Shown: positions 13,836 to 33,012, counted from the first letter of the stretch. The stretch is 37,750 nucleotides of DNA from Candidatus Aminicenantota bacterium (GCA_022866045.1 JALHTW010000009.1:1-37750), one strand, 5' to 3'. The notes: generated by a model not told the origin, from the sequence alone. Numbers and translations are program-made.

Positions 13836-13845
13836 GGCGTCCTCC

Positions 13846-17378: not shown

Positions 17379-19354
17379 GTCGTCTCTCGCTTCAACGGAA
17401 GCTTAACGGTAAACGTGGCCCCGTGTCCGGCTTCGCTTTGAACCTCGATCACTCCCCGATGTTTTTGAACGATGCCGTAGCTGATGGCCAGGCCGAGGCC
17501 GGTTCCCTTGCCGACTTCTTTGGTCGAGAAGAACGGCTCGAAGAGCCGCTTTTTGTCCTCTTCCCGGATGCCGTGGCCGGTATCCGTGAATTCGATGCTG
17601 ATCATGTCCCGGCCCGTATCGACGGATGTTTTGAGGGTTAAGGCTCCATTCCCGTTCATCGCCTCAGCGGCGTTGAGGATGATGTTGATGAACACCTGCT
17701 GGAGTTGGGCGCCGTCGGCGAAGATTTTCGGCAGGCCGGGCTCATACGATTTCCGGATGTCGATGTTCTGAAACAGGGCCTGGCGTTCCATCAGGGTCAG
17801 GGATTTGTTCAGGAGTTCGTTCATATCGACCATCCCCATCTCGGGCTCTTTCGGCCGGGCGAATTCGAGAAGACCCTTGACGATGTCCTTGCACCGCGTC
17901 GTCTCTTTCACGATTTTTTTGAGGTTTTCGTAGTGGGGGTGGTTTTTTTCCGTGTCCTCCAGGATCAGGTGACTGTAAAGGAGAATGCCTCCCAGGGGAT
18001 TGTTGATTTCATGGGCGATGCCCGCGGCGAGCTTTCCGATGGAGGCGAGCTTTTCGGACTGGACGAGATGGGCTTGGATCTCGACGAGCTCTTTGGTCCG
18101 TTCCTCGACCTTTTTCTCCAGGGTCGTTCCCCATTCAATGAGCGAATCATTAGCCTCGCGAAGATGGTCGGTCATCTGGTTAAAGGAATCCGCCAGGGTC
18201 CCGATTTCATCGCCCGAGCGCACATCGACCTTATGAGACAAATCTCCGTTGGCGATTTCCTGCGTGGCCCTCACCATCCTCTGAAGAGGCCGGATGATCC
18301 GGGTTGTGGAAAAGTTGAGGATGACCAGGAGAAAGATGACGAAGAGCACGGCGATCAGGGCGAAGGTCAGCATGACCCGGTTGGCGGTGTCCAGATAAGG
18401 CTTTTCGAGCATCCCGACATACAGAATGCCGATGATCTTGCTTTCGACGTTTTTGATCGGCTCGTAGGCGGTGATATACCAGTCGTTGACGACAAAGGCC
18501 CGGGCCAGCCACGCCTTGCCTTCGTCGAGGACGGCCTTTTTCACTTCCTCCGAAAGGAGCGTTCCGATGGCGCGCTCGCCCTTTTCGTTTTTGACGTTGG
18601 TCGAAATCCGGAGGTCGTTCTGGAAAATGGTCGCCGTCCCCGTCTCCCGGCCTTTGTATTTTTCGCCCTTGAAGACGAGGTCCTTGACGCGGTCCACGAT
18701 CTCATAATTCCGGTTGAGAAGAATGCCTCCGTAGAGGACGCCGAGGAGCGCACCTTTTTCATCGGTCACCGGCGCGGCGGCTTTGAGTATCATTCCGCTC
18801 GTCTCCCGGTTTTCGGGCCGGGGCGCGGCTTTCGGCGTCGGGACGAATTCCAGCACGGCCTTATCGGCCAGGTCGCGTCCCTCCCTGAGGAGCTCGTCCC
18901 GGGGGAGAATCTGGGAGGAGGCGGCGATGTTATTTTTTAAGGCCTGCCGGATGATTTCGTCGGAAGACTCGTCGTCTCCGGTCATTTCCGGATTCCTGGT
19001 TCTGAGAAGGACTTTTCCTTGCCCATCGGCCAGGCTCAGGATATCCAGTCCGTTTTCGGTTCGGACGCGGTTAAGATATCTCAGGAGGATGTCTTTCTGT
19101 TTTATTTGAACGGCTTCCCGCAGGCTTTCTCGTGCCGCGGTCAGGCTGACGATGACCTTGATGTCGTTGAGCTTTGCGTTGAAGACCATCCAGGCGGAAG
19201 ACAGATCATGGCGAACTTTGGCCTGAGCTTGGGAAATGAGTGTGCTGCGGATGAGCCGGGAACCGATGATGAGCGTAAGGAGGCCGCCGATGATGATGAC
19301 GACAAGAAAGCTCAAGATGAGCTTTGTCCGCAAGGAAAATTGAAACGCTTTCAT
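17375..19354 (-). CDS. Membrane histidine kinase (Cache sensor, HAMP, HisKA, HATPase_c)
   Basis: TM at N-terminus, Cache-like VLYGGILLNRNYEIVDRV...GTATIFQNDLRISTNV, HAMP, GIAHEINNPLGGILLYSHL H-box, GTGLGLAISYGIV; ATGA overlap with the RR. Confidence 0.93.
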   Translation of the reverse strand: MKAFQFSLRTKLILSFLVVIIIGGLLTLIIGSRLIRSTLISQAQAKVRHDLSSAWMVFNAKLNDIKVIVSLTAARESLREAVQIKQKDILLRYLNRVRTENGLDILSLADGQGKVLLRTRNPEMTGDDESSDEIIRQALKNNIAASSQILPRDELLREGRDLADKAVLEFVPTPKAAPRPENRETSGMILKAAAPVTDEKGALLGVLYGGILLNRNYEIVDRVKDLVFKGEKYKGRETGTATIFQNDLRISTNVKNEKGERAIGTLLSEEVKKAVLDEGKAWLARAFVVNDWYITAYEPIKNVESKIIGILYVGMLEKPYLDTANRVMLTFALIAVLFVIFLLVILNFSTTRIIRPLQRMVRATQEIANGDLSHKVDVRSGDEIGTLADSFNQMTDHLREANDSLIEWGTTLEKKVEERTKELVEIQAHLVQSEKLASIGKLAAGIAHEINNPLGGILLYSHLILEDTEKNHPHYENLKKIVKETTRCKDIVKGLLEFARPKEPEMGMVDMNELLNKSLTLMERQALFQNIDIRKSYEPGLPKIFADGAQLQQVFINIILNAAEAMNGNGALTLKTSVDTGRDMISIEFTDTGHGIREEDKKRLFEPFFSTKEVGKGTGLGLAISYGIVQKHRGVIEVQSEAGHGATFTVKLPLKRETT

Positions 19355-19396
19355 GTCGCATGCTTTAGGCTGGTCCTTTCGAAAAAGGGAGCCTGG

Positions 19397-19426
19397 AGTC
19401 AACGGAAAGAGTCCTCTTCGTTGACT
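19397..19426. promoter_or_regulatory. Inverted repeat overlapping the presumed start region of the HK-RR transcript
   Basis: AGTCAACG-ga-AAGAG-tc-CTCTT-CGTTGACT; adjacent minus-strand TATAAT at 19431-19436. Confidence 0.5.
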
Positions 19427-19495: not shown

Positions 19496-20956
19496 CTATC
19501 TCTTGAGCTGCCGGAGGAGCTGGCGCTTATGGTCGTAGATATTGATGGTCAGGGGCATGTCTCCCGGCAGGGCATGCGTTCCGCAGCCGTGGCATGGGTC
19601 GTACGCCCGAAACGCGATCTCGGCCATGTTCAAAAGCCCCTCGGAGATCTGGCCGCCCTTGATGAACGTTTTGGCGGCTTTCTCGATGGACATGTTGATG
19701 GCCGCGGCGTTGCCGATCGTGGCCACGATCAGGTTGGCGTCGGTTATGATCCCTTGAGCGTCTGTCGTATAATGGTGAATCAACAGGCCCCGCGGGGCTT
19801 CGACGATTCCCACCCCCTCGGTCGGCGACTGCGTGGGCAGTCTCCTGATATCGGCTCCCGTGATGTCTTTGTCGTCCAGGAGTTCGACCATCTTCTCGGC
19901 GGCTTGCAGAGCTTCGATCAGGCGGGCCCAGTGAAAAGCAAGCGTATTATGGACGGGTTTCCCGCCCAGAGTGGCGTACATTCGTTCATAATGTTTTTGC
20001 GCCCGGGGCGTCTGCATGCCGTTCGCGACATTGAGTCGGGCGAGGGGGGCGACCCTGTAAACGCCGCTGTCCTTGCCTTCGACAAAACCTTTCCAGCCGA
20101 CGTTTTTCAAGAACGGGAATTTGACATACGTCCAGGGTTCGACATGCTCGGCGATGTGTTTCAGATAGTCCGCCGGCTTGAATTTGACGTATTCCTTGCC
20201 GTCGGGGTCGACGACGCGGATATCGCCGTCGTAGAACTCGACCTGGTTGCGGGTGTTGACCAGGCCCATGTAGTAGGTTTTGATTTTATAGGCCTCCCCG
20301 ACGACGACATCCACATAAGCCTTGTTTTTTAAAACGACGTCGTCGAAGATCTGGAGGGCGAATTCGGCGAATTCGACCGCCGCCTTGGCCGTTTCTAAAA
20401 ATTTCAGCCGGTGCTCCTCATCCAGGCCTTTGGCTACGCCTCCCGGCAGTCCGCAGACGGGATGGATGGCCTTGCCGCAGAGATAGTTCATGATCTCCCG
20501 GCAGTCCTCCCGGATGCGGATCACCCGGCCCCCGATTTCGAGGCCCACTTTGCCGATGACACCCAGGATGTTCCGTTCGGCGGCCGGCGCCTGTGGCCCG
20601 ACGACGAAATCCGGCCCTCCGAGGAAGAAGAAGTGGAGCGTATGGTCCTCCATGAAAAATGCGTTGTAGATGAGTTCTCTGAGCTTTCGGGCGGTCGGCG
20701 TCGGCTCCACATGGAAGACGGCGTCCACGGCTTTGGTCGCGGCCATATGGTGGGCCGTCGGGCAGACGCCGCAGATCCGCGGCGTGATCCGCGGCATTTC
20801 TTCGACCGGCCTGCCGACGGCGAACTGCTCGAAGCCCCGGAGCTCCGGGACCTGGAGAATGGCTCGTTCGACGTCGCCCAGATCATTGAGAAAAATCTCG
20901 ATTTTTCCGTGTCCTTCCAAACGGGTAATCGGGTCGATTGTAATTCTTTGCGTCAT
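19496..20956 (-). CDS. [NiFe] hydrogenase large subunit, group 3c (MvhA)-like
   Basis: TRLEGHGKIEI, RICGVCPTAHH, DPCHGCGTH followed by a 25-aa extension ALPGDMPLTINIYDHKRQLLRQLKR. Confidence 0.93.
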   Translation of the reverse strand: MTQRITIDPITRLEGHGKIEIFLNDLGDVERAILQVPELRGFEQFAVGRPVEEMPRITPRICGVCPTAHHMAATKAVDAVFHVEPTPTARKLRELIYNAFFMEDHTLHFFFLGGPDFVVGPQAPAAERNILGVIGKVGLEIGGRVIRIREDCREIMNYLCGKAIHPVCGLPGGVAKGLDEEHRLKFLETAKAAVEFAEFALQIFDDVVLKNKAYVDVVVGEAYKIKTYYMGLVNTRNQVEFYDGDIRVVDPDGKEYVKFKPADYLKHIAEHVEPWTYVKFPFLKNVGWKGFVEGKDSGVYRVAPLARLNVANGMQTPRAQKHYERMYATLGGKPVHNTLAFHWARLIEALQAAEKMVELLDDKDITGADIRRLPTQSPTEGVGIVEAPRGLLIHHYTTDAQGIITDANLIVATIGNAAAINMSIEKAAKTFIKGGQISEGLLNMAEIAFRAYDPCHGCGTHALPGDMPLTINIYDHKRQLLRQLKR

Positions 20957-21933
20957 TTCACGGCCTCCATTCTTTTCCGTTTTAAGATTGAGGACGGCAG
21001 GCTGAACCGGTAAAACGTGCCGGCCGGGTCGACGATCGTCGAAACGATTCGTTCGATTTCCTTTTCGTCATTGGTATCCAGGATGGATGCGAACGCCGAA
21101 AGGAACTTGGCCCCTTGGTCGTAGACCTGGTCGGTCGGGCCCATGCAGCCCCGGCAGGGCATATTCCCCTCGATGCACCGCTCGCCGCAGCCGCTCCGCG
21201 TGGCCGGGCCCATGCAGATGACGCCCTGGGCCAGGAAGCACTTTTCGGGGTCGAGCAAGACTTCGTGCGGTCTTTTGATTTCCTTGATCGTCAGTTTTTC
21301 CGGCTTGGTGTCGTTCCGGTCGCAGTCTTCGCAGCAGGATTTGTTCGGGGCAAGAACCGAGCCTTTTGGAGGAAGTTTTCCTTCTAGAATGGCGGTCACG
21401 GCGTTGATGATGAGGTCCCGATGGGGCGCACAGCCCGGGAGGAAATAGTCCACGTCGATAACGTCGTTCAATGGATGCACGGTGTCCCAAAAGCGGGGAA
21501 GCGTCAGTTCGTATCCGTCGACGACGGATTTTTCCTGGGGAACGATCTTGCCCGGATTGTCTGTGGAGACGGTCGTCTGATATACCTTTCTGAAAATGGT
21601 GTCTTTGTTCCAGAAGTTGGCCAGTCCCGGAATGCCGCCCAGATGGGCGCAGGCGCCGTGGGCGACGACGAGCTGGGATTTGCGCCGGAGGAGATGGGCC
21701 ATTTCCTCCTGTTCCGACATCCGGATGCCCCCGTTGATGAAGCTGACGGCGATGGACTTGTCGGGCATGGCCTCGACGTCTTTTTTCTTAAAATCCAGGG
21801 CCACCGGCCAGAAGACGATGTCCACGGCGGCGACGACTTTCAGGATGTCTTCGGCCAAATCGACGATGGATTCTTCGCATCCGCCGCACGACGAGCACCA
21901 ATAAAACGCGACCTTAGGCTTGGCCTTGCTCAT
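20953..21933 (-). CDS. [NiFe] hydrogenase small subunit, MvhG-like
   Basis: [73 protein letters not shown]; start MSKAK at 21933. Confidence 0.92.
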
Positions 21934-22360
21934 GCCGTCCTCCATTCTGGTGAAGATTGAGAGGTCCGAGTTTTCGGATCTGTTCGGTGAACTCATTGCA
22001 GACCAGCTGGAATTTCGTCCCTTCCGAAGCGGACACCCATTCAAGCCTGAATCGTTCTTTTTCGATGCCGAACTGTTCCAGCATCTTCGACAGCAACCGG
22101 TGTCTTCTCAAGGCTTTGTAATTGCCTTCTTGATAATGGCAGTCTCCCGGATGGCAGCCGGAGATCAATACTCCGTCCGCTCCCTCCCGGAAGGCCTTCA
22201 GCACGAATTGAGGGTCGACCCTGCCGCTGCACATGACGCGGATGATGCGGATGTTCGGAGCATAGACCATTCGGGCGGTGCCCGCCAGATCCGCGCCCGT
22301 ATACGAGCACCAGTTGCACAAAAAGCCGACGAGCCTGGGCTCAAAGGTTCCGTTACTCAT
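21914..22360 (-). CDS. MvhD-like hydrogenase iron-sulfur subunit
   Basis: [78 protein letters not shown]. Confidence 0.93.
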
Positions 22361-22458
22361 CGTTGAATTCCCTCCCTTCATTTTTCACTTTTTTTTGCCC
22401 AAAATGAGATAGTATTTCCAATGCTGAACTCCTCGGCCATCCTGTTTTTTTCATAGCC

Positions 22459-24216
22459 TCAGACAAGGAGAATTCCTTCAATCTCGGCGAAAATCTGCGC
22501 ATCGCGGAAATGTTTTTGCTGGGACGCGCCGCTCGGGCAGGCGGCCACGCACGTTCCGCAGCCCTTGCACAGGGCGTCGTTGATGACGGAAATTCCCTTG
22601 TCTTTGTCGTACGTGATCGATGTGAACGGACAGAGCCCGACACAGATCTGGCAGCCCGAGCAGAGCTCATCGTCGATTTCCGCGGTGATCGGCTCCAACT
22701 CGACTTTACCGGCGTCGGCCAGGGCCAGGGCTTCGGAAACCGCCGCGCCCGCCTGGGCAACGGTATCGGGAATGTCCTTCGGCCCTTGGCATGTCCCGGC
22801 CAGGAAGATGCCGTCGGTAAAGGAGGACACGGGAGCGAGCTTGGGATGCCGTTCGAGGAAGAATGTGTCCTGGCTGCAGGAAATGTTGAATTTTTTGGCG
22901 AGCTGGTTGTGGTCGACGCTCGGCTCCAACCCCACGGCCAGAATCGCCATGTCGACCGGAATTCTCCGCACGGTGCCGATCAGGGTGTCCTCCACCCGGA
23001 TGATGAGCTTTCCTTCCTCTTTTTCGGTCAAGGCCAGGTCGTTGATCTCGGAGACCCGCCCGCGGATGAACTTCGTCCCCTCTTTGAGCAGCCTGTGGTA
23101 GAATTCTTCATAGCCCTTGCCGAAACAGCGCATATCGACATAGAAGTCGTAGATCGTCGCCTTGGTCTTTTCGCCGAGCAGGTGAGCGAATTTAAGGGAG
23201 TACATGCAGCAGACGCGGGAGCAATAGGCGTTGTAATTTTCATCGCGGGAGCCGACGCAGTGGATGATGCCGACGGCTTTGGGCTCCTCGCCGTTGGCCA
23301 TAAGGACCTTGCCGCCGGTCGGGCCCGAGGCGTTGACCAGCCGTTCAAACTCCATGGCGGTGATGATATTCGGGAAGCGGCCGTAGCCGTAAGCGGGGAT
23401 GCGGCGGGCGTCAAAGGGCTTGAAGCCTGAAGCTAAAATGATGGACCCGACCTCGAGGTCCCGCAGCGTGTCGTCCATCTCATAGTTGACCGCCTCTCTG
23501 TCGCAGACCTTGGCGCAGATTTTGCACTCCCCGGTCTTGAAATGGATGCACGCCTCTTTGTCGATAAAAGGCACCATCGGCACAGCCTGGCGGCTGGGGA
23601 CACGGATGGCAGTCGTCGGGCCGAGATACATTTCTTCATGGATGACTTTGCGGCCGTATTTGTCTTCGCACGTGATGGCTCCGGTCGGACAGAAATAGGC
23701 GCAGGCCGTGCATCCGATGCAGGCCTCGGACGGCTCGCCGAAGGGGGTCGAGACTTTTCGTTCGGTCCCGCGTTCAATGAAGCTGATGGCCGACGCCCCG
23801 ACGATCTGCTCGCAGGCCCGCACGCACAGGCCGCAAAGAATGCATTTTTCCTCGGGGTCTTTGACGGCGAAGCGCGTCTTTTTAATTCCGAGCTCTTTGG
23901 CGATCTGCCGCAGCGGTTCGGCGGCAGGGGCGCGCGCGAGGAGCATCTCGACGTTGAGCCGCCTGGCGCGCAAGGCTCTTTCGGAATTTGTCTGGACATC
24001 CATACCTTCCTGGACTTTGGTGTTGCATGACGTCACAAGATCGGCCTTCCCTTTAAGGGAGACCTCGACCATGCAGACCCGGCAGGCCGCATAGGGCTCG
24101 ACGACGGGATGGTAGCAGAGCGTCGGAATCTTGGCCTCGGCTTTTTTGGCGGCCTGCAGAATGGTCGCGCTTTCTTCCACCTGGATTTGTTTTCCGTCAA
24201 TCGTCAGATTCACCAT
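22459..24216 (-). CDS. Chimeric subunit: NuoG-N/HoxU-type 2Fe-2S and 4Fe-4S domains fused to the C-terminal half of HdrA
   Basis: N-terminal CYHPVVEPYAACRVCMVEV, ILCGLCVRACEQIVG, CIGCTACAYFCPTGAI; then HdrA-like CKICAKVCDREAVNYE, GYGRFPNIITAMEFERLVNASGPTGG, HCVGSRDENYNAYCSRVCCMYSLK, DMRCFGKGYEEFY, GIFLAGTCQGPKDIPDTVAQA, and two 4Fe-4S motifs. No GxGxxG FAD N-motif found. Confidence 0.9.
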   Translation of the reverse strand: MVNLTIDGKQIQVEESATILQAAKKAEAKIPTLCYHPVVEPYAACRVCMVEVSLKGKADLVTSCNTKVQEGMDVQTNSERALRARRLNVEMLLARAPAAEPLRQIAKELGIKKTRFAVKDPEEKCILCGLCVRACEQIVGASAISFIERGTERKVSTPFGEPSEACIGCTACAYFCPTGAITCEDKYGRKVIHEEMYLGPTTAIRVPSRQAVPMVPFIDKEACIHFKTGECKICAKVCDREAVNYEMDDTLRDLEVGSIILASGFKPFDARRIPAYGYGRFPNIITAMEFERLVNASGPTGGKVLMANGEEPKAVGIIHCVGSRDENYNAYCSRVCCMYSLKFAHLLGEKTKATIYDFYVDMRCFGKGYEEFYHRLLKEGTKFIRGRVSEINDLALTEKEEGKLIIRVEDTLIGTVRRIPVDMAILAVGLEPSVDHNQLAKKFNISCSQDTFFLERHPKLAPVSSFTDGIFLAGTCQGPKDIPDTVAQAGAAVSEALALADAGKVELEPITAEIDDELCSGCQICVGLCPFTSITYDKDKGISVINDALCKGCGTCVAACPSGASQQKHFRDAQIFAEIEGILLV

Positions 24217-24227
24217 GTCGGTCCTCC

Positions 24228-26060
24228 TTAATCAACCTTTACGGCGCCGAAATTACAGACATCGAAACACACGCCGCACTTGATGCATTTCGCCCGGTCG
24301 ATGACATGGGCCTCGTTCTTCTGGCCGGTGATGGCGTCCGAAGCGCAGTTGCGACGGCAGACATCGCAGCCGCGGCCGACCTTCACACATGTCTCCGGAT
24401 TGATCGTGTAGATGTTGAGTTGCCGGCAGACATGGGCCGGGCATTTTTTCGTTCTGATGTGGGCTTCGTATTCGTCACGAAAATACCGCAGCGTCGTCAG
24501 AACGGGATTCGGGGCCGTTTTCCCAAGTCCGCACAGGGCTGAATCCTTGATGGACAGGGCGAGGTCCTGGAGGAGGCCGATGTCCTCTTCGGTTCCCTTG
24601 CCCGCGGTGATGCGGGTCAGGATGTCGAGCATGGCCTTGGTCCCTTCGCGGCAGGGCGTGCATTTTCCGCAGGATTCTTCATGGGTGAACGACAGGAAAT
24701 AGCGGGCGATATCCACCATGCACGTGTCCTGGTCCATGATGACCATGCCGCCGGAGCCCATCATCGAGCCGGCTTCGGTGAGGCTTTCATAGTCGATCGG
24801 TAAATCGATTTTCTCTCTCGGGATGCAGCCGCCCGACGGTCCTCCGGTTTGGACGGCCTTGAAGGCTTTTCCCCCGGGAATGCCGCCGCCGATATCGTAA
24901 ATGATTTCCCGCAGGGAGATCCCCATCGGAACTTCAACCAGGCCGGTGTTGTTGATTTTCCCGACCAGGGAAAAGACTTTGGTTCCCTTGCTCGTTTCGG
25001 TCCCGATGCCGGCATACCATTTCGCGCCGCGGTTGATAATCATGGGCACGTTCGCCCAGGTCTCAACGTTGTTGATGCACGTCGGCTTCCCCCAAAGCCC
25101 GCTCTGGGCAGGGTAGGGAGGCCGCGGCCGAGGTTCGCCGAGCCGGCCTTCGATCGAGGCCATGAGGGCCGTCTCTTCGCCGCAGACAAAGGCTCCGGCG
25201 CCGCGTTTGATCTGGATGTCGAAGTCAAATCCGGTTCCTAGAATATCGCTGCCGAGGAGGCCATAATCCCTCGCCTGATCAAGGGCGATGCTCAGCCTCT
25301 GCACGGCCAGCGGGTATTCATTCCGGACATAAACAAATCCTGCCGTGGCGCCGATGGCTTTGGCCCCGATGACCATGCCTTCGATGACCGCGTGCGGGTC
25401 GGCTTCCAGAATGCTCCGGTCCATGAAGGCGCCCGGGTCTCCTTCGTCGCCGTTGCAGACGATGTATTTGCCGCCGCCGTTGGAGCTCGCCGCATTGCGG
25501 ACGAGCTGCCATTTCAAACCGGTGGGAAATCCCGCGCCGCCCCGGCCGCGGAGGCCGGAGAGAGTGATTTCGGTGATGATTTTATCCGGCGTCATTTCGG
25601 TCAAAGCCTTGACCAGGGCCTTATAGCCGTCCCGGGCGATGGATTCATCGATTTTTTCCGGGTCGATGAGTCCCCGGTTCCGGAGGGCGATGAGGACCTG
25701 TTTCTTGAAGAAGGGGATGTCGTTGAGTACCGGCACGGGCTTTTTTTCTTCGGGCGGCGTATACATGAATTTCGACACGAGCCGCCCCTTGAGGAAGTGT
25801 TCTTCGACGAGGTGAGGAACGTCTTTGACGGCCAATTGTTGGTAGAAAATATTTCCCGGCTGGACGACAAGAATCGGGCCCCGCTCGCAGAACCCGTTGC
25901 AGCCCGTGGGGACGACGGTCACTTCATTCTCCAAGCCGTGCTTTTTGATTTCCTTCTCTAACGCCTCCTTGATCTCGTAGGAATGGTTGGACACGCAGCC
26001 GGTCCCGGCGCAGACCATGAGGTGCAGCCGGTATGTTTTGTCTTTCGCTTTTTCCGCCAT
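24228..26060 (-). CDS. NuoF/HydB-type NADH-binding flavoprotein (Trx-like 2Fe-2S domain, FMN/NADH domain, C-terminal 2x4Fe-4S)
   Basis: CAGTGCVSNHSYEIKEAL...PTGCNGFCERGP; LRGRGGAGFPTGLKW; CNGDEGDPGAFMDR; ESCGKCTPCREGTKAM; CVKVGRGCDVCRRNC...CIKCGVCFDVC; start MAEKAKDK at 26060. Confidence 0.93.
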   Translation of the reverse strand: MAEKAKDKTYRLHLMVCAGTGCVSNHSYEIKEALEKEIKKHGLENEVTVVPTGCNGFCERGPILVVQPGNIFYQQLAVKDVPHLVEEHFLKGRLVSKFMYTPPEEKKPVPVLNDIPFFKKQVLIALRNRGLIDPEKIDESIARDGYKALVKALTEMTPDKIITEITLSGLRGRGGAGFPTGLKWQLVRNAASSNGGGKYIVCNGDEGDPGAFMDRSILEADPHAVIEGMVIGAKAIGATAGFVYVRNEYPLAVQRLSIALDQARDYGLLGSDILGTGFDFDIQIKRGAGAFVCGEETALMASIEGRLGEPRPRPPYPAQSGLWGKPTCINNVETWANVPMIINRGAKWYAGIGTETSKGTKVFSLVGKINNTGLVEVPMGISLREIIYDIGGGIPGGKAFKAVQTGGPSGGCIPREKIDLPIDYESLTEAGSMMGSGGMVIMDQDTCMVDIARYFLSFTHEESCGKCTPCREGTKAMLDILTRITAGKGTEEDIGLLQDLALSIKDSALCGLGKTAPNPVLTTLRYFRDEYEAHIRTKKCPAHVCRQLNIYTINPETCVKVGRGCDVCRRNCASDAITGQKNEAHVIDRAKCIKCGVCFDVCNFGAVKVD

Positions 26061-26071
26061 TCTCTCTCTCC

Positions 26072-26461
26072 TTAATAGTCCGTCTTCTCGCTGCCGATTC
26101 CCAGGGCGTATTCCTTGACAATGGTTCCGCCCAGCACGTGTTTCTCGAAAATTTCCTGCGCTTTTTTTTCTGTCAGGTTGACGTACTTCACGGGCGCCTG
26201 GCCCGCGATTTCGATGGTTACCATAGGCTCCTGGCTGCACAAGCCCGCGCAGCCGGAGTTTGTCAGCAGGACGTCATGGACGTCCCGGGTTTCGAGCTCT
26301 TTGATAAAAGCGTTCATAATAGTTCTGGCTCCCGCTGCGATTCCGCACGTCCCCATATGGACATTGACTTTGGCCCGGAATCCGCTCCCTTCCCGGAGAG
26401 CGGTCGTGCGCTTGACCTGTTCTCTAATTTTTTCCAAGTCTTCGATTTTGAGTTTGGGCAT
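26072..26461 (-). CDS. Thioredoxin-like [2Fe-2S] ferredoxin
   Basis: VHMGTCGIAAGARTIMNAF...LTNSGCAGLCSQEPMVTIEIAG. Confidence 0.85.
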   Translation of the reverse strand: MPKLKIEDLEKIREQVKRTTALREGSGFRAKVNVHMGTCGIAAGARTIMNAFIKELETRDVHDVLLTNSGCAGLCSQEPMVTIEIAGQAPVKYVNLTEKKAQEIFEKHVLGGTIVKEYALGIGSEKTDY

Positions 26462-26472
26462 CGGTCCTCTCC

Positions 26473-26928
26473 CTACTTCTTATATTTTTTAATCAATCCG
26501 GCCGCTTTGGTTTGAGTGATTTTCCCGTGGACGTCCTCCCCGACCATGACGACCGGAGCCAGACCGCAGCAGCCGACGCAGCGGACGGCGTCCAGGCTGT
26601 ACTCCATGTCGGGGCTCGTTTCGCCGGTTTTGATGCCGAGCTCCCGTTCGAACTTTTCGAGCACGAGCTGGGCGCCGCGAACATGGCAGGCCGTTCCAAG
26701 GCAGACGTGAATCGGATGCTTGCCTTTGGGCTTCAGGCTGAAGGCTGTGTAAAATGTGGCCAGGCTGAGGACGCGGCTGAGGGGGATATCCAGCTCCCTG
26801 GAGACGATCATGAGGGCGTTTTTCGGAAGGTAACTGAATTCCTCTTGGATGTCCTGCAAGATGGCAATGACGGCGCCCGGATCGGCCTGGTACTTGGTCA
26901 AGATTTCCGAGACGCGTTGCTCATTCAT
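26473..26928 (-). CDS. NuoE/HydC-type [2Fe-2S] subunit
   Basis: LQDIQEEFSYLPKNALMIVSRELDIPLSRVLSLATFYTAF, CLGTACHVRGAQLVLEKFE, VRCVGCCGLAPVV. Confidence 0.93.
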   Translation of the reverse strand: MNEQRVSEILTKYQADPGAVIAILQDIQEEFSYLPKNALMIVSRELDIPLSRVLSLATFYTAFSLKPKGKHPIHVCLGTACHVRGAQLVLEKFERELGIKTGETSPDMEYSLDAVRCVGCCGLAPVVMVGEDVHGKITQTKAAGLIKKYKK

Positions 26929-27473
26929 GTTTTCCTCCTTATATGGTCTATCCCTTCATTGATATCATGCTTGATGAATTTGATGACTTGAGGGTCATTG
27001 ATCGGGATGCCGTGGAGCTGAGCTCGGAGGTCCCTTGTGTCGAAGGCGTATTTTTTACCGTTGACTGCGTGCGTGTAGCGGATGTCGATGTCCGGGTGGC
27101 CGGCAATCAAGGTCAGGAGTGTCAGGGTCAAATCCCCGAGCGGTTTGAGGTCAATATGGCTGAGCTGGAATGTCGCTCGAACCTTTGTTCCGCGGCCCGG
27201 CTGCGAACGGACGGTCAATGTTCCGCCAGCGGCTTTGGCGGCCTCGGTCAGCAAAGGCAATCCCAGCCCGATCCGCCGTGCTTTCTTGGTCGTGACAAAG
27301 GGATCGAGGGCACGTTCTAGGAGCTCTTTGTCCATGCCTTTTCCGTTATCCGCAATCTCCAGCGTCAGCCGGTCTTTTTGCCTGTTTTCCTCAAGCCGGA
27401 TACGGATTTCATCGGCCTGGGCCTCGACCGAATTTTCGGCAATATCGAGAATGTGGAGCGACAGGTCTTCCAT
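26925..27473 (-). CDS. HATPase_c domain protein (stand-alone histidine-kinase-type ATPase)
   Basis: LHILDIAENSVEAQADEIRIRL...LEIADNGKGMDKELLERALDPFVTTKKARRIGLGLPLL. Confidence 0.87.
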   Translation of the reverse strand: MEDLSLHILDIAENSVEAQADEIRIRLEENRQKDRLTLEIADNGKGMDKELLERALDPFVTTKKARRIGLGLPLLTEAAKAAGGTLTVRSQPGRGTKVRATFQLSHIDLKPLGDLTLTLLTLIAGHPDIDIRYTHAVNGKKYAFDTRDLRAQLHGIPINDPQVIKFIKHDINEGIDHIRRKT

Positions 27474-27481
27474 GGTTTGCC

Positions 27482-28213
27482 TCAGTGGATGATTTTCCTT
27501 CCTCCGGTGTCTAAGAAGGCCATTTTTATTTCGTCGAGCGTTCCCGCCTGGAGCAGGAACGTCGTCGTTCCTATGCCGATCTCGTTCAAAAAATGCGCAT
27601 CGGATGAAGAAATGACCGGAAGGTGCGGGGCGAACTTGGCCTGCGCCTCGCTGAAGCTCATGCGGGGAGAAATCTCCAGGGCGTCAAGCTCGAGATGGTC
27701 AGGGATGAAGCCGAGTTGACCGATCAGGCTGAAACCCTCGCGGTCGATATGGGAGGCGACGGCCAGGCCGTTTAAGGAGTGGATCGTTGCGACAACTTCT
27801 TCCAGGGTCAGGGTTGAGGCCCCGATGAGGAGCCTTTTGTTAAAGCCGAGAACATCCCCCCGGTGATTGACGATGACCTGCATCCCGAACGCCCGTTCGT
27901 CATTTTCGCCAGGGAGATGGGCATAGATGATGTCTTGCAGGGCGAGGGCGGGCTCCACCTTGTCGAATAGGGCGAGGATGTGGACTTCCTCCTGAGACGT
28001 AACCTCCATGCCGGGAAGGACGCGGATGTCAAACTTCTCCGCGGCCTTCATCAACGCCGGCGTATTCTCGGCGGAATTGTGGTCGCAGATGCCGAGAATG
28101 TCGAGTTCCTTGATTTTGGCCTGGTTGGCGATTTTATGCGGAGACATTTCCAGGTCGCCGCAGGGCGAGAGACAGGTGTGGACGTGCAGGTCGGCTCTAT
28201 AAGTCCTGAGCAT
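27482..28213 (-). CDS. PHP-domain phosphoesterase-like protein
   Basis: YRADLHVHTCLSPCGDLEMSP, LGICDHNSAENTPA, GMEVTSQEEVHILALF, ISSSDAHFLNEIG. Confidence 0.88.
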   Translation of the reverse strand: MLRTYRADLHVHTCLSPCGDLEMSPHKIANQAKIKELDILGICDHNSAENTPALMKAAEKFDIRVLPGMEVTSQEEVHILALFDKVEPALALQDIIYAHLPGENDERAFGMQVIVNHRGDVLGFNKRLLIGASTLTLEEVVATIHSLNGLAVASHIDREGFSLIGQLGFIPDHLELDALEISPRMSFSEAQAKFAPHLPVISSSDAHFLNEIGIGTTTFLLQAGTLDEIKMAFLDTGGRKIIH

Positions 28214-28216
28214 CGG

Positions 28217-28558
28217 CTAATCCTTCGGCATGATCAGTCCATACAGTTTTCCTGAAATCCCAAATGCGGAGTCCGCCGTTCTGAGGAGGATCACATTTTC
28301 TTCCCGGGCTCTTTTGAGCGTATCTTCGTCCGGCGTCCGGTTGTTGACAAAAATGACCGCGGCCAAATCTTTGAGTTTGGCGACGGCGACGACGTTCTGA
28401 TGAGTTTGGAACGTGATCCAGATATTCTTTTCCCGGCTATGGGCCAAAACATCGCTCAGCATATCGCTGGTATAACCGCCCCTGACTTCGACATTAAAAT
28501 CTCCCTGAAGCTGTAACACTTCCAGGGATAAGGCGTTGATGATGTTCATAAGTTGCAT
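28217..28558 (-). CDS. DRTGG-domain-like protein
   Basis: QGDFNVEVRGGYTSDMLSDVLAHSREKNIWITFQTHQNVVAVAKLKDLAAVIFVNNRTPDEDTLKRAREENVILLRT. Confidence 0.78.
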   Translation of the reverse strand: MQLMNIINALSLEVLQLQGDFNVEVRGGYTSDMLSDVLAHSREKNIWITFQTHQNVVAVAKLKDLAAVIFVNNRTPDEDTLKRAREENVILLRTADSAFGISGKLYGLIMPKD

Positions 28559-29883
28559 GGTTCTTTTCCTTTTAATGGGATCCTGCTTTTTCTCCCGGGA
28601 GCGGCGGCGGAGAGCTCTTGGCCGGCGGATTTGATGACGCAGTCGGCCAACTTGGCTTCGCCTTTAACCACATCCTCGGCGAAGGTCAGACACGTCGGAG
28701 AACCGCAGGCACCGCAGTCGATCTTCGGCAGCGTCTCATAGAGATCATCCTTTTGTTTTCTTTTGGCGATCGCGCGGGTGAGGTCGTCGTCCAGGGGCTT
28801 GAGCGGCCGGACCTCAATCTTCCCTTCCATGAAGAAATATTTTTCTTGGTAACGCTTCCGGACCTCCCGGATGTCCGGGCAGGCTTTAATTTTCTCAAAT
28901 TCCAGGGTTTCGATAAGCTTGAGGATCTTGTTGTAAGAAATATAAACATTTTCCACGGTGAGCGACCCTCCGACGCAACCTTGGAGGCAGGAGTAGGCTT
29001 CGATGTAATCGATGTTGCGGAGTTTTCCGCGTTCGATGTCGTCAAAGACTTTGATGATGTCGGTCAGTCCGGACACCGAGAGCGAGTTCCGCAGCCTCAA
29101 CGTCCGGCAGATGCCACCGACCATGGCCCAGCCGATGCCCAGAATGCAGATGTTTTCCAAGCTCTTCCGATAGCTCTCGTTCGCCACGGCTTCCATGGCA
29201 GAGAGAAGTGGTCCATAAATGTCGGAAATGGCAATCGCCCCGTCGAGATGGGATTTCCCTTTTTCGGCCGGCTGCTTGATAGAAATCATTTTGGAAGGGC
29301 ACGGGGTGAGATAGAATGCGCCGATATCCTTTTCGTTCAGGCCGTACTGCCGGGCTTTTTTCTTTTTGATCTCCCGGGCGGCGATTTCGCGCGGATTATC
29401 GATCGGGATCAGGAGATCGACGAGATCCGGGTATCTGACCTGGATGAGGCGGACGATAACGGGACAGGTGTTAGAAATCAAAGGCTTTGGCCCTTTGTAG
29501 TCCCTGATGTATTCTTGGATGGCGAAGCTGATCTCGCCGCATGTCAAAGCCTGGTCGAAGGCGTCGTCAAAGCCGATTTTTTTCAGGCCATTAAGAATTT
29601 TGTCCGGCAGAATTTCCCGGCCGAACTGGGCGTAGAGCGCAGGCGACGGGATGGCGATAGTATGCCGGAATTTTGTGAGCTCGCCGAAAGGATTGGTAAG
29701 CGGGACAATGGCGCCGTTGGGGCAGGCGGTGATGCATTCGCCGCAGTCGATGCATTTTTCTTCGAGCATCAGGGCTTTTCCGCTTCTCACGCGGATGGCT
29801 TGGGTCGGGCAGGTCCGCATGCACCTCATCCGCCCCGCGCAACGATCGGTGTTGATCTGGATGGAATGAGAGTACAGACTCAT
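28546..29883 (-). CDS. [FeFe]-hydrogenase-like iron-sulfur protein (ferredoxin domain, H-cluster-like domain, C-terminal Fe-S domain); probable sensor-type paralogue
   Basis: CAGRMRCMRTCP and CIDCGECITACP; NTCPVIVRL (L1-like), TPCPSKMI (L2-like), EAYSCLQGCVGGS (L3-like); C-terminal CGACGSPTCLTFAEDVVKGEAKLADC. Confidence 0.82.
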   Translation of the reverse strand: MSLYSHSIQINTDRCAGRMRCMRTCPTQAIRVRSGKALMLEEKCIDCGECITACPNGAIVPLTNPFGELTKFRHTIAIPSPALYAQFGREILPDKILNGLKKIGFDDAFDQALTCGEISFAIQEYIRDYKGPKPLISNTCPVIVRLIQVRYPDLVDLLIPIDNPREIAAREIKKKKARQYGLNEKDIGAFYLTPCPSKMISIKQPAEKGKSHLDGAIAISDIYGPLLSAMEAVANESYRKSLENICILGIGWAMVGGICRTLRLRNSLSVSGLTDIIKVFDDIERGKLRNIDYIEAYSCLQGCVGGSLTVENVYISYNKILKLIETLEFEKIKACPDIREVRKRYQEKYFFMEGKIEVRPLKPLDDDLTRAIAKRKQKDDLYETLPKIDCGACGSPTCLTFAEDVVKGEAKLADCVIKSAGQELSAAAPGRKSRIPLKGKEPCNL

Positions 29884-30332
29884 GGATTGGCTTTCACTTT
29901 TGGATTGAGATAAATGACGATCTCGAGCCGGGTGCCCTTTCCCACCTCCGAGGAAATCTCGAACAGATCGGAGTTTTTTTTGATGTTGGGGAGGCCCATG
30001 CCCGCGCCGAACCCCATCTCCCGCATTTCGGGAGTGGCCGTGGAATATCCTTCCTTCATGGCCAGTTTGATGTCGGGAATGCCCGGTCCTTGATCTTGAA
30101 GGTGGAGATGAACCATCTCCGGCGTGACTCGCAGGGTCATTTCTCCTTTTTCGGCGTACATGACGACATTCATTTCGGCTTCATAAGTCGCGATGGCCGT
30201 ACGGCGGATGATGGACGGGTCGATCCCGAGCTCTTTGAGGATGTCCTTAACGGTCGTTGAAGCTTTTCCGGCGCGGCCGAAATTCCCTCCGATGATTTCA
30301 AAGGACTGCGATAGGACATTCTCGCCGCTCAT
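29880..30332 (-). CDS. Anti-sigma/RsbW-type HATPase_c protein
   Basis: TAIATYEAEMNVVMYAEKGEMTLRV...LQDQGPGIPDIKLAMKEGYSTATPEMREMGFGAGMGLPNIKKNSD; start MSGENVLS at 30332. Confidence 0.83.
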   Translation of the reverse strand: MSGENVLSQSFEIIGGNFGRAGKASTTVKDILKELGIDPSIIRRTAIATYEAEMNVVMYAEKGEMTLRVTPEMVHLHLQDQGPGIPDIKLAMKEGYSTATPEMREMGFGAGMGLPNIKKNSDLFEISSEVGKGTRLEIVIYLNPKVKANP

Positions 30333-30700
30333 TCCTTTTTTATTGTGTCCGAAACAAGAATTCCTAGAAGGCCGTGCGTGTAAAGGATTCCGCAAGCCTC
30401 GTACATCATGCGCTTCGTGGAGAGGACCGGGATTCCCTTGACCATGGCCAGCTCCAATCCCTCTTCGTCCGGCCATTTCCCCCGGACATAGACGATGGCC
30501 TTGGCTTCGAGGATATCGGCCGTCCGGACGGACTGCGCGTTGCTCAGCCCTGTCAGCAGCAGCTGCCCGGGTTGGCCGAAGGCCAGGACGTCGCTCATCA
30601 GGTCCGCGCTGCAGGCGCATTCGATATTGGTTTCAAGGAGGGCTTCGGTTCCCCAGACGACCTCGGCCTGAAGGAGGCGCTGAATTTCCCTGAGCTTCAT
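30329..30700 (-). CDS. DRTGG-domain-like protein (second copy)
   Basis: MKLREIQRLLQAEVVWGTEALLETNIECACSADLMSDVLAFGQPGQLLLTGLSNAQSVRTADILEAKAIVYVRGKWPDEEGLELA. Confidence 0.78.
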   Translation of the reverse strand: MKLREIQRLLQAEVVWGTEALLETNIECACSADLMSDVLAFGQPGQLLLTGLSNAQSVRTADILEAKAIVYVRGKWPDEEGLELAMVKGIPVLSTKRMMYEACGILYTHGLLGILVSDTIKKE

Positions 30701-30701
30701 A

Positions 30702-31553
30702 TTAATGTTCTTTTCCAACTTCTTTGATGATCATCTTTCCTTTGCGGATGATCCGTTCCGAGGGGGTGACCGTGGTCGGGCAATTTTCCCAGCAGGCGCC
30801 GCAGCCGTTGCATTTATCGATATCGACATAACGCGCTTTCTTCCGGATTTTAGCCTTGAAATTCCCGATATAGCCCGAAATTTCCTCAACCTCGCTCCAG
30901 GTCAGCAGCTCGATATTGGGGTGCTTTCCTGCCTCGCTCATCTTGGGAGTGAGGATGCAGGCCGAGCAGTCGAGAGTTGGAAAGGTCTTGTCGAGCTGTG
31001 ACATGTGGCCTCCGATGGACGGCTGCTGCTCGACAAGATAGACTTTTTTTCCGGACTTGGCGTAGGTCAGAGCGGCCTGAATGCCGGCGATCCCGCCGCC
31101 GACGATCAAAACTTCGGGGCGGACCGGAACTTCTTTTTTGGTCAGGGAATCATGCAGGGCGACCCGGCGGACGGCGGCCGAGATCAAGGCCTCGGCTTTT
31201 TTGGTCGCGTCCGCGGGCTTAAGCGTGACCCATGACACCTGCTCGCGGATATTCGACATCTGGAAATAGAAGGGATTCAACCCTCCTTCGGCCGTCACGC
31301 CCCGGACCGTGGGCTCATGCATGAGGGGAGAGCAGGAGGCGACGACGACGCGGTTCAGGTCGTGTTCCTTGATGCTCTTTTTGATCAATTCCTGTCCCGG
31401 ATCGGAACACATGAATTTGTATTCTTTGGCGACGATGACATCGTCCAGCTTGGCGGCGAAGTCCAAAACCTCGGTGACATTGACTTTTCCGGCGATGTTG
31501 GTGCCGCAGTGGCAGACGAAAACGCCGATTCTCGGCTGACCGTTATGGCTCAT
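30702..31553 (-). CDS. N-terminal half of heterodisulfide reductase subunit A (HdrA-N)
   Basis: RIGVFVCHCGTNIAGKVNV, FMCSDPGQELIKKSIKEHDLNRVVVASCSPLMHEPTVRG, GGLNPFYFQMSNIREQVSWV, LIVGGGIAGIQAALTYA, GGHMSQLDKTFPTLDCSACILTPKM, IGNFKAKIRKKARYVDIDKCNGCGACWENCP; ORF then ends (283 aa). Confidence 0.92.
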   Translation of the reverse strand: MSHNGQPRIGVFVCHCGTNIAGKVNVTEVLDFAAKLDDVIVAKEYKFMCSDPGQELIKKSIKEHDLNRVVVASCSPLMHEPTVRGVTAEGGLNPFYFQMSNIREQVSWVTLKPADATKKAEALISAAVRRVALHDSLTKKEVPVRPEVLIVGGGIAGIQAALTYAKSGKKVYLVEQQPSIGGHMSQLDKTFPTLDCSACILTPKMSEAGKHPNIELLTWSEVEEISGYIGNFKAKIRKKARYVDIDKCNGCGACWENCPTTVTPSERIIRKGKMIIKEVGKEH

Positions 31554-32434
31554 AGCGTCCCTCCGTTTTTAAGCTTTTTCCAGACCGGCTTCAACGAAAC
31601 GATCGACCGGGAAAATCCGAGGTCTTCTTTGGCGATACCCATCGCCAGTCCCAGCAATTGGCTGAAATAGAGGATGGGCATCGCGACGTCGTCCTTGTAT
31701 TTGCGCCCGGCCTTGTCCTGGGTGATTTCCAGGTTGAACTGGCAAAGAGGGCAGATCGTGACGATGGCGTCCGCGCCCTTCCGCTTGGCTTCTTTAAGAA
31801 GGATGTAATTCAGCCGCAGCCCGACCTCTTCGATCGTCCCGGTCAATGACCCTCCGCAGCAGCGTGTCTTGGCCGAGTAATTCACGGACTCGGCTCCCAC
31901 GGCCTCCAGAAGGCGGTCCAGCTTTGTGGGATAATCGGGATCATCGAAATCGGTGTACGGCCGGACGAGCTGGCACCCGTAGTAGCAGGCCACCTTGAGC
32001 CCTTTGAGAGGCCGTCGGACCAACTCCTTGATTTTCGGCAGGCCCACATCCTCGCTGAGAACCTGCAGGGGATGCTTGACGGCGACCTTGCCCTGGTATT
32101 CGCAGCCGACGCTCTTCAAATCCTTCAATATTTTGGCGGCCTTCGGCTGGGACCCCGCCAGGAAGATGTTGGATTTCTTGAGGGTCAGGTAGCAGCCGGC
32201 GCAGGGAGCGATGATGTCCTTTCCGGCTTTTTCGGCGAGGGCCAGGTTTCGCCCGCAGACGGCGGCGGCCATGGTATCGTCCACGGAAAAGTAAGCGGTC
32301 GCGCCGCAGCAGTTCCAGTCCTCAAGTTCCTGGAGCGGCATGCCGATCTCTTTGAAAACGGGAAGGATGGATTCTTCGTAAGCCCGGGAACTGCCTTTGA
32401 GCGAACAGCCGGGATAATAAACGTAACCGTTCAT
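31550..32434 (-). CDS. hdrB: Heterodisulfide reductase subunit B (HdrB)-like
   Basis: Two complete CCG motifs: NCCGATAYF...CAGCYLTL and YYGCQLVRP...RCCGGSLTGT...CPLCQFNLE; ATGA overlaps on both sides. Confidence 0.9.
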   Translation of the reverse strand: MNGYVYYPGCSLKGSSRAYEESILPVFKEIGMPLQELEDWNCCGATAYFSVDDTMAAAVCGRNLALAEKAGKDIIAPCAGCYLTLKKSNIFLAGSQPKAAKILKDLKSVGCEYQGKVAVKHPLQVLSEDVGLPKIKELVRRPLKGLKVACYYGCQLVRPYTDFDDPDYPTKLDRLLEAVGAESVNYSAKTRCCGGSLTGTIEEVGLRLNYILLKEAKRKGADAIVTICPLCQFNLEITQDKAGRKYKDDVAMPILYFSQLLGLAMGIAKEDLGFSRSIVSLKPVWKKLKNGGTL

Positions 32435-33012
32435 CGGGTGTCCTCCTTGATAGCCTTTAATAAGGCTCCCAGTTGCTTTCTGTCTTTGATGGATTCTTTC
32501 TTGAGAGACATGCGTCCGGTCTTCATGAGTTTGAGCCCAAGAGGGGCCATTTTGAACAAGCCGAAGGGGTTGCGGGATTTGAGGTAGAGGTTAAGGATGA
32601 GCCACATTTCTGAATTCCGGCCGTATTTCGCGATCAGCCGGGACATTTGCCTGTCCAGGACCGGAATGGCGAACCGCGAGGGATAGACTTTCTCTTCGAT
32701 GGCTTTCCGCTTGAGAGCATACATGACGTCGGTGATTTTGATTTTGGATGGGCAGCGCACCTGGCACGTGTAGCAGGATGGACAAAGCCAGATGGTGAAG
32801 CTCCTCAGGGCTTCGTCTTTGAAGCCGCTTTTAATCATGGCGATGATTTTTCTCGGCGTATAATCCATATAGACGGCCATCGGGCAGGAACTGCTGCATG
32901 TCCCGCATTGGATGCATTCATCGATTTCTTCGCATCTCGACATTTCCTTGATTTCGTCCACAAAGCCGGAATCCAGTTCTTCCTCGTATTTGACTTTTTT
33001 ATGGATTTCCAT
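32431..33012 (-). CDS. hdrC: Heterodisulfide reductase subunit C (HdrC)-like
   Basis: CIQCGTCSSSCPMAVYMDYTPRKIIAMI and CPSCYTCQVRCPSKIKITDVMYALKRKA. Confidence 0.9.
   Translation of the reverse strand: MEIHKKVKYEEELDSGFVDEIKEMSRCEEIDECIQCGTCSSSCPMAVYMDYTPRKIIAMIKSGFKDEALRSFTIWLCPSCYTCQVRCPSKIKITDVMYALKRKAIEEKVYPSRFAIPVLDRQMSRLIAKYGRNSEMWLILNLYLKSRNPFGLFKMAPLGLKLMKTGRMSLKKESIKDRKQLGALLKAIKEDTR

Follow-up and report, generated by a model that had tools for sequence, protein, structure and literature searches.

Whether the flavin site of HdrA can be built from two separately encoded proteins is the question raised by a 37,750-nucleotide stretch of DNA from a Candidatus Aminicenantota bacterium (GCA_022866045.1, JALHTW010000009.1:1-37750; hereafter the window). 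An initial annotation had described two open reading frames (ORFs), HdrA-N with the N-terminal half of HdrA and HoxU-HdrA(C) with the C-terminal half fused to a NuoG-N/HoxU module, about 6.5 kb apart in one operon. It had proposed that binding of flavin adenine dinucleotide (FAD) may need both polypeptides, tying the HdrBC branch to the NADH/H2 branch. Both ORFs were found at the positions given there, on the minus strand, and the distance of ~6.5 kb stands; the extent of the operon is corrected here, as the same-strand run goes on as mvhD-mvhG-mvhA. The sequences indicate that the flavin site and two Fe-S clusters are probably built from the two separate proteins. The two ORFs and their predicted features are as follows.

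30702..31553, minus strand: hdrA-N, 283 residues, N-terminal Fe-S domain and first halves of the thioredoxin reductase (TrxR)-like FAD domain and of the inserted ferredoxin (HdrA2 profile, 5ODC)
31083..31100, minus strand: GGGIAG, residues 152-157 of HdrA-N, ADP-binding loop for FAD (sequence, alignment)
30957..30959, minus strand: codon of HdrA-N Cys199, Cys197 in 5ODC numbering (5ODC alignment)
30780..30812, minus strand: CNGCGACWENC in HdrA-N, first cluster motif of the inserted ferredoxin (Cys invariant in alignment)
23647..24216, minus strand: HoxU/BfuA module, one [2Fe-2S] (C34, C45, C48, C64) and two [4Fe-4S] clusters (profiles, invariant Cys)
22459..23631, minus strand: HdrA(C), second half of the inserted ferredoxin, remainder of the TrxR-like domain and C-terminal ferredoxin (HdrA2 263-640; 5ODC to residue 649)
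23503..23550, minus strand: CIHFKTGECKICAKVC in HdrA(C), second cluster motif of the inserted ferredoxin (Cys invariant in alignment)
23344..23346, minus strand: Glu291 of HoxU-HdrA(C), 5ODC Glu356 (invariant)
23191..23193, minus strand: Lys342 of HoxU-HdrA(C), 5ODC Lys409 (FAD N5; invariant)

Division of HdrA between two ORFs

The N-half and C-half division is borne out by the HdrA2 profile (NCBIfam NF040770, 777 positions). Residues 8-263 of HdrA-N correspond to positions 1-258 (E 6e-111), residues 196-582 of HoxU-HdrA(C) to positions 263-640 (E 1e-130) and MvhD to positions 646-774, one profile thus being tiled by three ORFs with zero overlap. Pfam Pyr_redox_2 is cut likewise, with positions 2-83 in HdrA-N and 180-287 in HoxU-HdrA(C). 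Alignment to the structurally known HdrA of M. thermolithotrophicus (5ODC) pairs residues 3-262 with HdrA-N and 245-649 with HoxU-HdrA(C); the short overlap is the HoxU ferredoxin placed onto the ferredoxin of HdrA. The cut lies in the inserted ferredoxin, itself inserted in the TrxR-like FAD domain, and falls between the two Cys motifs of that ferredoxin. The N-terminal 190 residues of HoxU-HdrA(C) are HoxU/BfuA-like (Fer2_4; HoxU E 1e-33), in agreement with the fusion first described, and among PDB entries they are closest to the BfuA of a bifurcating aldehyde oxidoreductase (9mqx). The FAD domain does not lie on a single polypeptide here but is spread over two genes, as it is in relatives.

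Cofactor residues and cluster motifs

HdrA-N carries GGGIAG, Cys199 and CNGCGACWENCP, and HoxU-HdrA(C) carries CIHFKTGECKICAKVC, Glu291, Lys342 and both motifs of the C-terminal ferredoxin. The N half thus supplies the GxGxxG loop and Cys197 of HdrA, and the C half its Glu356 and Lys409, two residues that contact FAD N5 or hold it in position (PMC12054007). HoxU-HdrA(C) has no GxGxxG of its own and no FAD Rossmann motif in its sequence, so that a complete FAD site within the C half, which would have spoken against the proposal, is not the case. Both the inserted and the C-terminal 2[4Fe-4S] domains are present, the inserted one divided between the chains. In two 15-sequence alignments, one per half, the cofactor residues and Cys of each half are invariant or nearly so; Gly-152, Gly-154 and Gly-157 of HdrA-N are invariant and Gly-153 is replaced by Ala in two rows. 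The halves are complementary also in their cluster motifs, CxxCxxCxxxC being present in 64/64 stand-alone N halves examined and the C-x7-CxxCxxxC spacing in 86/92 HoxU-HdrA(C) ORFs. In a 2[4Fe-4S] ferredoxin each cluster has three ligands in one motif and a single ligand in the other. Because the two motifs of the inserted ferredoxin reside on separate chains, both of its clusters should, under this usual ligand rule, bridge the two chains.

Conservation and recurrence of the split

Thirteen further genomes, which represent at least four families of the same order, keep the operon gene order, and across these relatives the C half is 71-84% and the N half 76-87% identical. Such identity across several families argues that the split genes are under selection. 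In the thirteen relatives the stop of HdrA-N also differs in position by no more than a few codons. One of them, genome G014, contains a second, compact locus (L044) with only hdrC-hdrB-hdrA-N-bfuC-bfuB-hoxU-hdrA(C), at 52-57% identity and without the hydrogenase or regulators. In the paralogous loci of G014 the tree neighbours of each N half are also those of the C half from its own locus, a half-for-half match that removes species relatedness as an explanation.

The arrangement recurs well beyond the order. A genome-wide scan with the HoxU-HdrA junction as query gave 543 stretches with a relative, of which the best 80 were analysed; it is biased to query-like sequences and its frequencies are not unbiased. 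The relatives carry ~18 phylum labels, bacterial and archaeal, taken from the record titles of metagenome-assembled genomes. Two architectures dominate. In type A, as in the window, a whole separate HdrA-N is accompanied by HoxU-HdrA(C). In type B the separate N piece comprises only residues from about 136/148 to 260, and it is accompanied by a double HdrA, HoxU-HdrA(C)-HdrA, of ~1090 residues; this form is found in Desulfobacterales, Planctomycetota, Thermoplasmata, Altiarchaeales and others. What the type B N piece has kept after loss of the N-terminal domain is precisely the set of elements missing from HoxU-HdrA(C): the Rossmann piece, Cys197 and the first ferredoxin motif. Of the 53 HoxU-HdrA(C) loci that extend 6 kb or more upstream, 50 by hand count show the co-occurrence with a stand-alone N piece expected from the initial annotation; the three exceptions have stand-alone N ORFs elsewhere in their genomes. 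No single-chain N-HoxU-C protein was found among the loci analysed. At 13 loci the N piece is fused to BfuC, as the Rossmann-only piece in 12 and as a whole HdrA-N in the Nitrospiraceae genome L120; these fusions place the N piece beside BfuBC, hence beside HoxU.

A genome of the same order (L047, G030:C148:3459-6821) encodes a 1120-residue HoxU-HdrA(C)-HdrA double fusion beside a BfuB-GltD fusion. Both split architectures occur within one order.

The two halves are co-inherited. In N- and C-domain trees, which derive from quick searches and have long branches, the halves of the window fall in matching clades, and N and C distances are correlated (Mantel r 0.86 over 66 pairs; maximum 0.13 in 999 permutations), also within type A (r 0.83). 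One-chain HdrA with GltD/NfnB in the same ferredoxin nests inside the type A clade in both trees, so that close relatives of both halves exist as a single protein. L109, L118, L120 and the type B clade are placed elsewhere in the C tree. A single origin of the HoxU-HdrA(C) split and fusion was rejected by the approximately unbiased test on the C half (p 3e-59), a value to which deep subfamily differences contribute; the fusion may have arisen several times, or the HdrA part may have been replaced while the arrangement was kept. The HoxU tree contained too few free HoxU rows, one of them bad, and was not used for conclusions.

A predicted two-polypeptide HdrA joined to Bfu and Mvh modules

The remaining components of the candidate complex are encoded in the same minus-strand run.

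32431..33012, minus strand: hdrC-like, two 4Fe-4S motifs (NCBIfam CoB_CoM_SS_C 2e-24)
31550..32434, minus strand: hdrB-like, both CCG motifs in the sequence (NCBIfam CoB_CoM_SS_B 1e-63)
26473..26928, minus strand: bfuC/NuoE-like subunit (PF01257 1e-49)
24228..26060, minus strand: bfuB/NuoF-like, N-terminal [2Fe-2S] and C-terminal ferredoxin (PDB match 7t2r_B, 870 bits); start set at M61 of a longer ORF, inferred from relatives
21914..22381, minus strand: mvhD (PF02662 9e-57)
20953..21990, minus strand: mvhG, [NiFe] hydrogenase small subunit (NCBIfam)
19496..20956, minus strand: mvhA, [NiFe] hydrogenase large subunit, RICGVC and DPCHGC (VhuA 2e-125)

By its best matches the NuoE/NuoF-like pair is a bifurcating-type BfuB and BfuC core, BfuC matching PF01257. 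The best solved relative of BfuB is HydB of the bifurcating NiFe hydrogenase HydABCSL (7t2r_B), with 870 bits versus ~400 for complex I NuoF. The A1, A2 and A4 clusters of BfuA are represented by C34/45/48/64 and two CxxCxxCxxxC motifs, and the His-Cys3 motif of the A3 cluster is absent from the HoxU module in the sequence and in the 15-sequence alignment. According to passages of PMC9304861, A3 is optional in the family and absent from BfuA of Type 2 Bfu enzymes. Since BfuB is nearest to bifurcating HydB and the HoxU module has no His-Cys3 cluster, the operon complex seems to join two bifurcating systems. The third module has the components of a group 3c MvhADG, with a VhuA/MvhA-like large subunit, MvhG and MvhD.

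These components would form one large soluble redox complex of HdrABC, MvhADG and BfuBC in which HdrA consists of two polypeptides. HdrA-N and HoxU-HdrA(C) would complete the TrxR-like fold for the bifurcating FAD, the N half contributing the ADP-binding loop and the C half Lys409/Glu356 and the closing FAD strand. The inserted 2[4Fe-4S] ferredoxin would likewise be completed by both chains, each cluster taking ligands from both. Because the HoxU/BfuA module is spliced into the inserted ferredoxin, the exit of HdrA, electrons that normally leave HdrA for soluble ferredoxin would pass through the HoxU clusters to BfuBC, which would exchange them with NAD(H) and ferredoxin. H2 would be taken up or released through MvhADG and the C-terminal ferredoxin, and HdrBC would serve a high-potential acceptor, probably a disulfide. 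It is likely that the halves assemble into one working HdrA whose ferredoxin branch is wired by HoxU to NAD(H) and ferredoxin through BfuBC. The assembly is strongly supported by genomics; the route and direction of the electrons are proposed from the position of HoxU. The two-polypeptide FAD site and the link between HdrBC and the NADH/H2 branch, as first suggested, gain support from the complementary invariant residues, the co-occurrence and the correlated distances of the halves, and are further supported by the pairing of the G014 paralogues, the BfuC fusions and the trimmed type B N piece. The wide occurrence, the apparent bifurcating Bfu type of NuoEF and the predicted cross-chain clusters extend that first description.

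A broader proposal, held at about even confidence, is that the inserted-ferredoxin loop acts as a socket for NAD(P)H modules (Bfu via HoxU, GltD/Nfn), spliced in several independent times and commonly through a break that left the FAD domain on two polypeptides. This would give a four-substrate machine with two bifurcation sites in series, the flavin mononucleotide-FeS site of Bfu and the FAD of HdrA, linked by [4Fe-4S] clusters between two chains. At L038, L041 and L042 (also L061, L062 and L128) BfuB is found without its C-terminal ferredoxin and with a GltD/NfnB domain in an ORF of ~1030 residues, a fusion that may add a further flavin module to the same complex.

Alternative explanations

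Several observations weigh against a two-polypeptide HdrA. Nine genes stand between hdrA-N and hoxU-hdrA(C); terminator-like sites in the operon region show no excess over shuffled sequence. AlphaFold models of the single halves reach a mean predicted local distance difference test score of only 59.6 and 56.1, with shallow alignments, and speak neither for nor against assembly; with these low-confidence models Foldseek places HdrA first for both halves and BfuA 9mqx for the HoxU part, a match that may be sequence-driven. A DsrC homologue (PF04358) was not found in the 94%-complete genome, and DsrC was consequently rejected as the HdrBC partner. Finally, a complete HdrA of 649 residues, the only one of this genome, is encoded elsewhere (C276, L046).

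The halves might assemble with another electron route, in which soluble ferredoxin continues to dock at the inserted ferredoxin and HoxU and BfuBC form a side branch or donate or accept mid-potential electrons. In known Bfu enzymes BfuA carries mid-potential electrons, according to passages of PMC9304861, and a canonical HdrA takes up mid-potential electrons at its C-terminal ferredoxin, which is intact here. However, the junction with HoxU lies only tens of residues from the inserted ferredoxin, not near the C-terminal one, and recurs at this place, and the C-terminal ferredoxin is already served by MvhD; this arrangement is possible but unlikely.

Considerably less probable is that HdrA-N only docks HdrBC and holds a structural Fe-S cluster, while HoxU-HdrA(C) relays electrons without flavin and no shared FAD site forms. 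The two ORFs are separately translated, and HdrA-N retains the N-terminal Fe-S domain and adjoins hdrB. A dock would keep that domain, yet type B, in other phyla, lost exactly this part and retains just the Rossmann piece, Cys197 and the ferredoxin half, often fused to BfuC; the Gly-rich loop, Lys409 and Glu356 are conserved.

Very improbable, too, is that a complete HdrA is the functional one and the two halves are unrelated leftovers next to it, or that the N half pairs with another HdrA. The initial annotation had named a complete HdrA elsewhere, with the halves as unrelated paralogues, as a threat to its proposal; the complete HdrA at C276 does exist, but the halves do not appear as its leftovers. 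It is 54% and 42% identical to the two halves, branches with another subfamily and lies in the order hdrC-hdrB-2-oxoacid oxidoreductase-hdrA-mvhD. The locus suggests another Hdr-linked complex, with 2-oxoacid:ferredoxin oxidoreductase genes, hdrCB and mvhD, and given this subfamily and these neighbours the split HdrA is not refuted; loss of the split enzyme might be buffered by it. The 71-87% identity of the split genes across several families and their matching N and C trees are also difficult to reconcile with leftovers.

An artefact of sequencing, assembly or annotation (frameshift, contig misjoin or selenocysteine misread as stop), conceivable in a draft genome of 365 contigs and given that selenocysteine truncates HdrA annotations elsewhere (PMC12054007), has a negligible chance of being correct, as the same architecture occurs in many independent assemblies, including chromosome-level L104, L121 and L127, the C half begins with its own 190-residue HoxU module, and a frameshift is rejected by the shared HdrA-N stop and conserved C-terminal tail in the 13 further genomes.

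In-frame TGA codons at Cys197

An in-frame TGA lies exactly at the Cys197 codon in 22 matches from 21 loci (L082, L086-L088, L090-L092, L095, L096, L098-L101, L108, L110-L112, L114, L127, L130 and L134), one match being an HdrL-type gene. In L085 the TGA is at the Cys neighbouring Cys197. MvhD ORFs are broken at one place in many of the loci with TGA at the Cys197 codon. This TGA is most simply read as selenocysteine at a functional site, and the interrupted HdrA-N pieces and broken MvhD are likely selenoproteins cut short by annotation. Misread selenocysteine was rejected as the cause of the split in the window, since the architecture is conserved and the TGA-interrupted N pieces of the 21 relatives are nearly all separate genes anyway.

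Relation to known complexes

FlxABCD-HdrABC of sulfate reducers, a system cited in PMC10553843, is an NADH-linked HdrABC like the operon of the window, from which it differs in having Flx proteins in place of BfuBC and an HdrA that is not known to be split. The methanogen HdrABC-MvhADG complex (5ODC) shares the hdrABC and mvhADG parts, the HdrA fold positions, the FAD residues and all Fe-S Cys motifs. In contrast, its HdrA is a single chain, it has no NADH module and its inserted ferredoxin faces soluble ferredoxin. The Bfu family, comprising HydABC, NiFe-Bfu HydABCSL, Wor-Bfu and Bam-Bfu, is described in passages of PMC9304861 and offers homologues of BfuB and BfuC and, in Type 2, a BfuA-like module without A3; here, however, BfuA is fused to half of HdrA and the third partner is HdrABC-MvhADG. 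An HdrA module is present in Bam-Bfu as well, there together with a tungsten enzyme and an unfused BfuA (BamI); no tungsten aldehyde oxidoreductase-like catalytic subunit was found among the operon proteins searched. The HdrA passages of PMC9304861 contain no Hdr-Mvh-Bfu or split HdrA.

Type III HdrA/HdrL (PMC2702500, PMC9012536, PMC12054007) likewise has its inserted ferredoxin interrupted by an NAD(P)H module, but it is a single polypeptide with GltD/NfnB instead of HoxU, and BfuBC is not obligatory. The ORF of the window, carrying HoxU, does not belong to this type, and GltD occurs only in the paralogues L045, L048 and L049. In these relatives of the order, neighbouring hdrCB loci encode an HdrA of 1137-1149 residues whose ferredoxin domain contains GltD, a form named HdrL or type III HdrA elsewhere. 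For such an insertion a 2025 study (PMC12054007) proposed that GltD blocks ferredoxin, NADH reacting instead, which is a published analogue of the routing suggested here. The tandem or fused HdrA of anaerobic methanotrophic archaea and of Moorella MetFV-HdrABC (PMC9012536) resemble the type B double HdrA in that the N-terminal domain and Cys197 are complementary between HdrA units. Unlike here, all HdrA in that work are stated to keep the FAD residues, and fission of the FAD domain is not described. The visible text of a 2009 genome paper mentions an HdrA3/A3' pair without showing its architecture. No description of a split HdrA or of an HdrA-NuoG fusion was found in the open-access literature, consistent with the initial annotation, which knew of no characterised enzyme of this arrangement.

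The sequences thus support a form of HdrA that recurs across phyla, fused to a Bfu system, with FAD site and ferredoxin common to two polypeptides. Should the halves assemble, HdrA would have its bifurcating flavin site and two ferredoxin-domain clusters at a subunit interface, which would be new for this protein, and would show how a low-potential branch can be switched from a freely diffusing carrier to an enzyme wired in place. An assembled pair would also account for many genes of anaerobes annotated as 'partial HdrA' or 'NuoG-like'. Because the arrangement is widespread among uncultured anaerobic lineages, it bears on their balancing of H2, NADH and ferredoxin near thermodynamic limits. 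It also offers a natural split system for testing the role of each piece of the FAD site.

Gene order and neighbouring genes

The minus-strand run reads hdrC, hdrB, hdrA-N, DRTGG-like, HATPase, [FeFe]-hydrogenase-like Fe-S protein, second DRTGG-like, PHP, HATPase, bfuC (NuoE-like), a small thioredoxin-like [2Fe-2S] gene, bfuB (NuoF-like), hoxU-hdrA(C), mvhD, mvhG and mvhA, and is followed 3' of mvhA by a sensor kinase and then a sigma-54 response regulator. Features other than the Hdr, Bfu and Mvh subunits are listed below.

28217..30718, minus strand: regulatory-looking block of DRTGG-like protein, HATPase, [FeFe]-hydrogenase-like Fe-S protein and second DRTGG-like protein
26925..28213, minus strand: remainder of the block, PHP-domain protein and HATPase (Pfam, conserved order)
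26072..26461, minus strand: thioredoxin-like [2Fe-2S] protein (Pfam)
16023..19402, minus strand: sensor histidine kinase and sigma-54 response regulator, 3' of the operon in most relatives (conserved order, Pfam)

Two genes of 28217..30718, the first without a Pfam match, are presumably DRTGG-like. The cassette at 26925-30718 (DRTGG-like, two HATPases, PHP, [FeFe]-hydrogenase-like Fe-S protein) keeps its place between the two halves of HdrA both in this order and in several further phyla, and a sensor role is possible for its [FeFe]-hydrogenase-like Fe-S protein. A second [NiFe] hydrogenase cluster, group 3b-looking, is located at 11314-15761 of the window and comprises large and small subunits, an NAD-binding flavoprotein and an Fe-S protein.

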